Source of the DNA: Ignavibacteria bacterium
Lineage (GTDB): Bacteria > Bacteroidota > Ignavibacteria > Ignavibacteriales > Ignavibacteriaceae
Direction of reading: 5' to 3'
Length of the DNA: 54,482 nucleotides
NCBI GenBank assembly: GCA_030684555.1
Contig: JAUXVN010000106.1
Coordinates: forward strand, 1 to 54,482
The position numbers and the translations under genes are program-made. Below are positions 22,535 to 50,112 of this stretch, piece by piece (position 1 is the first letter of the stretch; the number at the start of each line of letters is the position of its first letter). The notes beneath the pieces were generated by a model. The model was not told the DNA's origin, did not search any database, and saw nothing but the letters and a program-made list of their open reading frames with translations.

Positions 22535-22572
22535 TTTAGCAAGAAGGAAAAGCCTTCAGATTGTTTATTTCT

Positions 22573-24819
22573 ATGTCGGAAGATGTTCGAAGTTTTTATA
22601 AACTTTTTATTTTAGTTTTACTCTTTCAAGTATTTGGTTATTCTCAACCGGGTGATTATTACAACACAATTAATGTTTCAAGTCCGACGTTTGTTGAAGA
22701 CCTAAAAACAAGAATAAGATCTCCATACACAAAAGTTACTTACGATAATTTTGATGAAACGAATATTGCTAATTATGCTTCCCGTGATACAACAGGGGGA
22801 CAAAAAGCAGTAACTTGTGTTTATTCCGGATTTATACAAGTTTATACTCCTCCTTTTGCCTGGACTCCGACCACCTCAATGAGTCGTGAACATACTTGGT
22901 GCCATAGCTGGATGCCGACTCATAGCAGCACTTCAGGAAATGAATATTCTGATCAACATCATCTTTTCCCCACGCATCAAAACAGTGCAAACGGAGTAAG
23001 GAGCAATCATCCGCTTGGAATTGTAGTTACCCCAACATCTACTTTTTTAGAAGGGAAGTATGGAAAGGATGCAAATAATAATAATGTTTATGAACCAAGA
23101 GATTCGCACAAGGGAGATGCTGCAAGAGCTATACTATATATGACTCTCAGATATGATGATGTTAACGGACACAATTGGGATTTTAATTGGCTTAACAACA
23201 CAAGACTTCCTTATCTAAATGAAGCCCCACAAGATTTAAACCTTCTGTTATCATGGCATCAAAATGATCCGCCGGATGTTTGGGAAATTGGACGGAATGA
23301 TTACATTCAAACAATTCAACAAAATCGAAATCCTTTTATCGATCATGCTGAGTATGTTGATTATATTGATTTTAATGATATGACATATAAATCGTCTTCA
23401 TCAAATACTTCCGTATCGTTCACTTCTGCCGGAGCAACGAAGAATGAAACTGTAGGAAGTTATTCCATTTCTATTTCTATATTAAACAGAAGTGTTACAA
23501 ATTCTACTTCGGTTGATGTAGTTTTAGTAAGCGGCAATGCTTCAGATATTGGTAATTATACTACTCAAACAGTCACATTTCCGGCAAATAGCAGCGCCAA
23601 CCAAACTGTCAATATTACCATTACCGATAATGATCTAGAAGAAGATGACAAAGAATTTACATTTGAATTACAAAACATAAGTGGCGGGGAGAATGCGGAA
23701 ATTGGCAATAATCCTACATTCCGGTTGACTATCGTTGATAACGAAAAACGATTACTTATAACCGAAATTAGTGATGCCGTCGGGACAGATAATTTTATAT
23801 ATGAATTTATTGAAATTTATAATGCTAAAATTCGAGATGTGGATGTTTCTGGTAATATGTTAAAGCAATTTAATAGTACACAATCATTTACTATACCGTC
23901 TGAAACAATTATTCCGGCTGGCGGATTTTTAGTAATTAGCCGAAATAGTTCACAATCGGCTTTTGAATCTTTTTGGAGTACAACATTAGATTCAGCCGTT
24001 GTTTTTATAAATTCAGCAAATAAAGTCCCACAAATAAATGGTGAAGAAAAATTTATGCTGAAAGATTTAGATGACATTAATATTGACCCGGCGATTAATA
24101 ACGATACAACTTTTTTAGCTCATGTGGCCAATCGTAGAATTATTAGATTAAACCATGGTAATGATATTAATTCGTGGCAATCCTTATTGCTTTCTTCTTC
24201 AAATGCAACTCCGGGTAGATTAGAGCCTGCTCAAGTTCTTCCTGTAGAACTTAATTCTTTTGATGTAAAAGTTTCAGGAAAAACTGTTCATATCTTCTGG
24301 TCAACCGCTACAGAAACCAACAACTACGGTTTTGAAATTGAACGTAAGATGCTGAAACAAGTTCAGCATGACAACAATGGTTGGGATGAGATTGGTTTTG
24401 TAGAAGGTAACGGTAACTCAAATTCTCCAATGGAATATTCATTTACAGATGATAATCTTGAAAGCGGTAAATATTCTTATCGGCTGAAGCAGATTGATAA
24501 TGACGGTAAATTTTCGTACAGCCAAATTATTAATATCGAAATTAAAAATATTCCGACAGAATATGCATTGTATCAGAATTATCCCAACCCATTTAATCCG
24601 ACTACAAAAATAAAGTATTCAATCTCCAGCCTTCAGCCCACAATATTAAATGTATATGATATTTTAGGAAATGAAGTTGTACTTCTTGTAAATGAAATCA
24701 AAGAATCCGGCGAATATGAGATTGAATGGAATGCATCTAAATTGTCTTCGGGAATATATTTTTATAAACTGCAAGCTGGTGAATTTATTTCAACAAAGAA
24801 ACTTGTTTTGATGAAGTAA
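22573..24819 (+). CDS. T9SS-exported endonuclease I with Calx-beta and lamin-tail modules
   Basis: Secreted nuclease. I use the ATG at 22573, which begins directly before a signal peptide (FYKLFILVLLFQVFGYS); a TTG four codons earlier is possible. The endonuclease I (EndA/NucM) domain spans about 20-270, with the catalytic-site motif REHTWCHSW and the DQHHLFP..NSANGVRSNHPLG block. A Calx-beta-like repeat follows at about 275-385, then a lamin-tail domain at about 390-545, a linker (WSTATETNNYGFEIER..), and a T9SS sorting domain from about 665. An in-frame palindrome (24348-24372) adds KMLKQVQHD to the linker. Likely job: degrade extracellular DNA for nutrients. Confidence 0.88.
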   Translation: MSEDVRSFYKLFILVLLFQVFGYSQPGDYYNTINVSSPTFVEDLKTRIRSPYTKVTYDNFDETNIANYASRDTTGGQKAVTCVYSGFIQVYTPPFAWTPTTSMSREHTWCHSWMPTHSSTSGNEYSDQHHLFPTHQNSANGVRSNHPLGIVVTPTSTFLEGKYGKDANNNNVYEPRDSHKGDAARAILYMTLRYDDVNGHNWDFNWLNNTRLPYLNEAPQDLNLLLSWHQNDPPDVWEIGRNDYIQTIQQNRNPFIDHAEYVDYIDFNDMTYKSSSSNTSVSFTSAGATKNETVGSYSISISILNRSVTNSTSVDVVLVSGNASDIGNYTTQTVTFPANSSANQTVNITITDNDLEEDDKEFTFELQNISGGENAEIGNNPTFRLTIVDNEKRLLITEISDAVGTDNFIYEFIEIYNAKIRDVDVSGNMLKQFNSTQSFTIPSETIIPAGGFLVISRNSSQSAFESFWSTTLDSAVVFINSANKVPQINGEEKFMLKDLDDINIDPAINNDTTFLAHVANRRIIRLNHGNDINSWQSLLLSSSNATPGRLEPAQVLPVELNSFDVKVSGKTVHIFWSTATETNNYGFEIERKMLKQVQHDNNGWDEIGFVEGNGNSNSPMEYSFTDDNLESGKYSYRLKQIDNDGKFSYSQIINIEIKNIPTEYALYQNYPNPFNPTTKIKYSISSLQPTILNVYDILGNEVVLLVNEIKESGEYEIEWNASKLSSGIYFYKLQAGEFISTKKLVLMK
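24348..24372. repeat. ATGCTGA palindrome inserted in frame in the endonuclease gene
   Basis: ATGCTGAA (24349-24356) and TTCAGCAT (24362-24369) form a perfect 8-bp stem with a 5-nt loop. The flanks GATGCTGA...CAGCATGAC match intergenic copies at 49892-50014. The element is translated as MLKQVQHD within an otherwise typical linker. Confidence 0.7.
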
Positions 24820-49674: not shown

Positions 49675-50112
49675 TTTATTCTCTAAAAATTAAAAATGTA
49701 AAATAGTATGAATAAACTACTGAAAAAGGATTTTTGCCGCAAACAATGAAATTGAGTTTAGACGATGCTAAGTGGCGTTTTATAAGTATAACGGTTCCCT
49801 CTGCCAGTTTGGGTTTAATCTTTATTCGAAAGTGTCTATTCTTACAGCATCTTAGATTCTGACATCCGTCAGAATGACCGTATTTAATGTCATGCTGATG
49901 TTTCGCCGCGGCGAATCAGCATCTTTCCGCGAGAATGGAGATTCCAACCTTCGTCGGATGCCAGCAAGATTGGGCATGTGTCATGCTGTTCGCCGTGACG
50001 AATCGATTCAGCATCTTTCCAATTATTAGAAGACGCCGACCAGCCTGAGGCAGGCTGACCGAATGCATTTACGGCTTTTCGCAAAGAGCTAGACAAGCAA
50101 AGGAATTAAAAT
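49675..50112. repeat. 438-nt intergenic stretch filled with palindromes (ATGCTGA family)
   Basis: No credible gene. From right to left in plus coordinates: CAGCCTG-agg-CAGGCTG (50041-50057); ATGCTG...CAGCAT (49983-50014); ATGCTGA-tgt-TTCGCCGCGGCGAA-TCAGCAT (49892-49922); and ATTCTGAC-atcc-GTCAGAAT (49856-49875). The second and third belong to the family also found in the endonuclease gene. The first 150 nt (49675-49830), nearest tnaA, are AT-rich and should contain its promoter. GC content of the palindrome part is clearly above the surroundings. Confidence 0.75.

Follow-up and report, generated by a model that had tools for sequence, protein, structure and literature searches.

A REP-like palindrome read in frame in a length-tolerant loop of a predicted T9SS-exported nuclease, a probable sink for small genomic repeats

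We describe a REP-like palindrome that is read in frame within the gene of a putative secreted nuclease. It lies in the window, by which we mean the whole stretch of 54,482 nucleotides of an Ignavibacteria bacterium analysed here (contig JAUXVN010000106.1, assembly GCA_030684555.1). The palindrome is probably a copy of a REP-like family that has come to sit in an exposed, length-tolerant loop of a domain of this T9SS-tailed nuclease. The loop is in turn a probable sink in which small repeats of the genome collect, since in paralogues outside the window the same loop holds repeat DNA of other classes.

The element, GATGCTGAAACAAGTTCAGCATGAC (24348-24372), is a palindrome with an 8-bp stem and a 5-nt loop. 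It is oriented on the − strand, where its TGTC tag lies (24370-24373), and its + strand codes for MLKQVQHD within an open reading frame at 22561-24819 that opens at TTG and has its first ATG at 22573. The window copy folds with a DNA energy of −7.1 kcal/mol (z −4.1; 2 of 200 shuffles equally good), and sequence, fold and reading frame agree with the 8-bp hairpin and in-frame peptide described in the earlier note. The full repeat unit is likely the 27 nt at 24347-24373 (−), equal to nine codons (T + 25 + T); we placed its boundaries by the T that precedes GTC in 49 of 63 genomic copies and the T that follows ATC in 57 of 63. The gene (+ strand) combines endonuclease I, Calx-beta, lamin tail (LTD) and Fn3-like domains with a T9SS sorting tail. 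Its product is a putative endonuclease I, as judged by the family model PF04231 (E 2.1e-31; 110 bits, above the cut-off of 25), and a predicted T9SS cargo by virtue of a type A C-terminal sorting domain at 24580-24807 (+), which was matched by PF18962 (E 6.7e-11) and TIGR04183 (E 7.9e-11). The palindrome lies in the Fn3-like β-sandwich domain (24226-24549, +), a domain assigned from a model and tblastn that has about 80 paralogues in the same genome. Within it, the palindrome belongs to a hypervariable loop, KMLKQVQHDNNG (24346-24381, +), flanked by FEIER and WDEIGF, with the order FEIER-KMLKQVQHDNNG-WDEIGFV given by the reading frame.

An AlphaFold2 model of the Fn3-like domain (five sequences; mean pLDDT 84) has the REP-coded loop bridging strands 34-43 and 54-61, and the block of residues 41-50 has a mean pLDDT of 68. 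The best match among solved structures was the Fn3 domain 2ic2 (E 4.7e-4, TM 0.68), one of only two matches that reached E ≤0.001. What the earlier note had called a linker that tolerates the peptide is, going by this model, better termed a β-hairpin loop of the Fn3-like domain. Tolerance itself is in keeping with the lower modelled confidence of the loop, with its length of 3-19 aa among 82 paralogous loops, and with the best same-genus match (L182, genome G001), in which the loop has 8 aa versus 12 in the window gene and the REP is absent.

The palindrome is one of many in its genome, a 4.34-Mb draft of 152 contigs. In the window, GATGCTGAAACAAGTTCAGCATGAC had no second match even with as many as 3 mismatches allowed, and 100 shuffles gave an expectation of 0.00; across the genome, the pattern GTCATNCTGN{3,33}CAGNATC returned 69 matches versus none for its reversed control. 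On both counts we rejected a chance origin of the palindrome. That the whole observation stems from chance or from an assembly artefact, as the draft state of the genome might suggest, is a practically negligible explanation: besides these counts, four more REP loops in two other genomes contradict it by recurrence. Copy statistics, taken from 63 distinct copies with 12-nt flanks and with nested copies excluded, establish the family. Stem position 3 covaried (G-C in 43 copies, T-A in 18, C-G in one, G.T in one), and the tag was TGTC in 49, CGTC in seven, GGTC in five and AGTC in two, GTC being set by the pattern. The stem, of which AT was set by the pattern, was a perfect 8 bp in 44 copies, and 42 combined an 8-bp stem with a loop of 4-5 nt; the window element is among both. 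In the remaining 21 copies, 15-29 nt separate the paired parts, and several of these show a second palindrome by eye. The tail after the stem starts with CT in 57 copies and with CC in five. Neighbouring copies less than 200 nt apart formed only three pairs in the sample, and a single pair was head to head. A stricter REP pattern was found in 20 of 59 genomes, our own included. On a Candidatus Gastranaerophilales contig (L240), three REP matches close to the contig end recur every 54 nt, in the manner of a tandem array.

The genome has six Y1-transposase loci, and their fetched flanks, each about 4 kb or shorter where a contig ends, contained neither a REP nor a half site. We therefore rejected a link between the window's REP family and these transposases, and no mobilising enzyme for the family was found at these loci.

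Placement of the copies was examined in 68 contexts, obtained from the 69 matches by merging copies with equal 20-nt flanks; contexts L057 and L201 overlap, as two readings of neighbouring copies. A context counted as genic if an open frame of 120 codons or more covered it, judged within the fetched DNA, where some frames are cut at contig ends. No such frame covered 62 of the 68 contexts. Three others share one 151-codon frame (L016), which is mostly REP sequence, and we rejected it as a gene since it is built largely from three REPs. Context L054, in a baeRF-type protein on contig C52, was rejected as a third genic insertion: eight plasmid records matched it, and the two that were aligned (Rubrobacter and Kovacikia), homologues from other phyla, cross the stretch without a gap, and we read it as ordinary coding sequence. 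This leaves two contexts that sit within real genes and look like inserts, the window copy and L085 (C105:10303-10339). They occupy paralogous domains at one and the same β-hairpin loop position, with orientation and frame in common, reading EIER-KMLKQVQHD in the window gene versus QVER-KILKQFASGEQND in L085, whose REP is of a different subtype and 37 nt long. Likewise, a 1.24-Mb sample (28% of the genome; a simple ORF rule marks 90% of the sample as coding) held 21 intergenic REPs and two coding ones, namely these two. We conclude that the window element belongs to a small, non-autonomous, otherwise intergenic family of REP-like palindromes.

Intergenic copies also occur in the window itself. 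The matching core that the earlier note had placed in the gap at 49892-50014 belongs to real copies, and their true ends are 49889-49923 (+, 35 nt, with a palindromic stretch in the loop) and 49980-50015 (+, 36 nt, with a long loop). A third copy beyond those claimed lies at 49855-49878 (−, 24 nt, with a T-A variant in the stem). Both larger copies contain the extra loop stretch TTCGCCG.., and the one at 49980-50015 folds weakly (z −1.3; 22 of 200 shuffles as good or better). Nested palindromes in REP loops take the form TTCGCCG..CGGCGAA at 49889-49923 and, among the matches listed, CCTGCC..GGCAGG in genomes G002, G005 and G015.

We then compared the loop across the paralogous domains. In the genome, tblastn matched the domain 89 times, with some domains split into half matches; 82 loops were measured, 50 with 3-8 aa and 32 with 9-19 aa. 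The long loops have a repeat-like make-up: 16 contain period-7 DNA, two a REP and two paired ACCTCCGAGGT palindromes, and 12 carry no signature. Period-7 DNA was called where self-similarity exceeded the 99th percentile of 160 control segments, which are mutually overlapping and come from these same domains; 14 of the 16 loops outscored all 160. The 1.24-Mb sample covers 21 of the 32 long loops; 13 of these exceeded the 95th percentile of 402 upstream segments of the same genes, at lag 7 in 12 cases (p 1.8e-8). An intergenic match with a score of at least 17 was found for six of these 21 loops (two REPs and four of the IKN type) versus none of 161 controls, and a rank test of the intergenic scores gave a modest p of 0.011. 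Intergenic matches alone were counted because paralogous coding matches had entered the controls; with these included, 14 of 161 controls scored at least 20, as did 4 of the 21 loops, and the rank test gave a p of 0.014. Most period-7 loops, the IKN type excepted, had no good intergenic match in the sampled 28% of the genome. This holds for the SVVSGQ and SEVRS types, with intergenic scores of 10-13, which may therefore have grown in place. The six IKN-type loops are close paralogues of one another, so the repeat events are fewer than the loop counts. The exact GTCAGNNGTCAGNNGTCAG pattern, a three-unit GTCAGNN, occurred at one place, a domain loop, and its reversed control had two matches. The ACCTC palindrome pair (ACCTCCGAGGT) occurred at 11 places, two in domain loops and six flanking a REP-transposase-like gene on both sides. 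That gene (L070:3764-4318, contig C114 of G000) codes for a 184-aa Y1 transposase-like protein that scores 56 bits against the NCBIfam model REP_Tyr_transpos, below its cut-off of 80, and is flanked by the six paired palindromes, two to one side and four to the opposite side. By eye, loops of relatives contain period-7-like DNA (L184 and L194) and palindromes other than the REP: L197 has a 28-nt near-perfect one, and the sequences CCCTTCC..GGAAGGG and GTAGAAACGATGCATGCATCGTCTCTAC, the last GTAG-tagged in look, were noted in L187 (G034) and L197 (G008).

These repeats could also reflect a hotspot at the DNA level, where slippage- or hairpin-prone loop DNA attracts or makes repeats irrespective of what the protein tolerates. 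Period-7 arrays that have no intergenic copies in the sample do suggest local slippage or expansion, and AA or CA precedes the REP in all six REP loops that we found. Yet the feature common to REP, palindrome and period-7 loops is a position in the protein, with no shared DNA motif noticed by eye, and the flanks of intergenic REPs are varied. We consider such a hotspot quite improbable.

Recurrence of REPs at this position extends to other genomes. A scan of contigs (genome_contigs) for REPs adjoining E-x-x-R codons gave 29 stretches. Four lie in open frames of the Fn3-like domain, in the same loop: three in Ignavibacteriales bacterium CG_4_9_14_3_um_filter_34_10, with the loop QILKQVQNDSN, and one in Bacteroidetes bacterium MM_PC_MetaG.mb.18, with QILNQVQNDKS. 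The other 25 met stop codons or belong to unrelated contexts. Across 391 genomes of the class, our own included, the REP was found at five places in three genomes, all five in the loop; the anchor of this survey requires E, and L085, which has Q, is outside its reach. Given identical coordinates, the four places outside the window are presumably the four loops of the scan, which would assign both carrier genomes to the order of the window. Among 18 stretches around related nuclease genes, 13 of which gave a distinct row of the domain alignment, none coded for a REP peptide in any frame. Retention of the peptide with unrelated codons, which the earlier note had named as evidence against its reading, was thus not seen there.

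All six REP loops share orientation and frame, and the three PFVB01 loops contain identical 25-nt REPs. Both facts would be expected if few REP captures had been followed by gene duplication and gene conversion among the paralogous domains, with recurrence a matter of family history. To weigh this, we used a tree of 100 of the 105 aligned domain rows, with duplicates and rows of fewer than 70 residues removed. One row, L256_177_277, has X over the loop and was left unlabelled; in this second domain copy of its contig (residues 177-277), a run of N covers the loop and the preceding residues, as if assembly had been hindered or the stretch masked. L235 and L239 fall within one starred clade, as copying would predict. 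Against copying, the six REP loops map to six changes on the tree, of which starred branches force at least three, in a tree with few columns, many open forks and unsettled bootstrap. The two copies of our own genome are different REP subtypes, and L085 is the starred sister of L084 and L075, both without a REP (loop length 8 aa in L084 versus 15 aa in L085). The flanks of the PFVB01 loops agree at only 55-68 of 90 nt, a pattern that short-tract conversion could likewise produce. Some REP loops could owe their spread to gene conversion; as an account of the recurrence as a whole, copying is unlikely.

We favour, as the probable account, a filter set by the protein. In the nuclease, a copy of the REP-like family would have come to lie in the exposed β-hairpin loop of the Fn3-like domain, not far from the C-terminus. 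Insertion would be the route; insertions would occur broadly and survive where frame, stop codons and solubility permit. In paralogous secreted proteins, the same loop contains the second REP subtype, the ACCTCCGAGGT palindrome and period-7 arrays, the last having been taken up or having grown in place. Tolerance would be the reason for survival, with benefit to the host presumably absent: the 27-nt unit contributes nine codons, KMLKQVQHD is the only hydrophilic one of three open frames, and the loop accepts very different lengths and sequences. The unit TGTC..ATCT has 27 nt, or 39 nt in the L085 type, both divisible by three; the common 24-nt copies would add 26 nt. Of the six REP frames, those reading KMLKQVQHD, CHAELVSAS and VMLNLFQHL are open, with mean hydropathies of −1.29 versus 0.64 and 1.12 for the other two, and the KMLKQVQHD frame is the only one found in the loop by searches anchored in one orientation each. 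The opposite REP orientation was found in none of the 391 class genomes with one anchor. The data fit a survival filter that passes REPs where the protein tolerates them, in one hydrophilic open frame, and "selection for neutral landing sites", as the earlier note put it, is too strong.

The restriction to the hydrophilic frame and the lack of the opposite orientation could instead mean that the loop peptide is useful, for example as a binding loop, and kept by selection, with repeat DNA merely supplying new loop sequence. Stop codons and solubility would, however, suffice to produce the frame bias, which also comes from searches anchored per orientation. Moreover, the paralogous loops are very diverse in sequence, 50 of 82 span only 3-8 aa, and the G001 match does without the peptide. 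We regard a useful peptide as very unlikely.

Loop lengths do not bear out a simple insertion. No relative offered an empty site of exact unit size, and no target-site duplication was certain at the REP loops. L085 is 21 nt longer than its sisters, not 39, and the window gene 12 nt longer than the G001 match, not 27. These differences fit neither unit, and loops therefore also seem to be deleted, replaced or converted between paralogues. As a tentative and rather doubtful extension, a single loop in a large domain family of secreted proteins may be a standing capture site at which small repeats of several unrelated families, mobile or slippage-prone, are taken up in frame repeatedly; the exported proteins of this lineage would then owe most of their loop diversity to parasitic DNA. 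One loop with different repeat classes is a natural experiment on the insertions that proteins tolerate, and selfish or slippage-prone DNA could in this way feed protein diversity. The loop also offers a place to catch REP mobilisation in families without a known transposase, and loops of close strains could reveal insertions with and without empty sites.

In-frame REPs have been described before, in assorted proteins, and what is new here is the loop position shared by repeats. Among the matches listed from open-licence literature, titles and abstract openings contained no report of repeats collecting in a loop of a T9SS cargo, and no paper containing LKQVQHD was found. The closest relatives are the CGTC-tagged REPs of Chlorobi and Bacteroidetes (Di Nocera et al. 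2013, PMC3733652). According to that article, these have an unpaired CGTC, TGTC or CCTC tag at one end, a stem of 8-9 bp that starts with AT and a loop of 4-5 nt. They are mostly intergenic and sometimes within genes, where they are perhaps neutral in flexible linkers or loops; they lack a linked transposase, most of their tails fit CCA, and head-to-head dimers predominate. Our family resembles them in its TGTC variant of the tag, its 8-bp stem from AT, its loop of 4-5 nt, its mostly intergenic placement and the lack of transposase association at the six Y1 loci. It differs from them, so far as they are described there, in that the tail starts with CT, not CC(A), a third of the copies are long-looped, and both intragenic copies fall in the same loop of a single domain family.

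Rickettsia palindromic elements (RPEs), two of which, RPE-4 and RPE-6, are equated with CGTC REPs in PMC3733652, are also palindromic repeats read in frame within genes. As outlined in a review (PMC10969869), they measure about 150 bp and lie in frame in unrelated genes, whereas our element is 25-37 nt long and recurs in one shared loop, both genic copies of our own genome being in paralogous domains. Heptanucleotide TAACTGA repeats (PMC4679880) share the period of seven. According to that study, they are mostly intergenic, some are read through at protein edges, and their tolerance is proposed to lie between subunits of modular proteins; unlike them, the exact three-unit GTCAGNN occurs here in one domain loop only, and the other period-7 loops have other units. 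Finally, the window's REP family has no REP-associated tyrosine transposase as neighbour in the fetched flanks, in contrast to RAYT-associated REPs (REPtrons), which the ACCTCCGAGGT pair of two loops resembles in that it also brackets a gene of this transposase-like kind.
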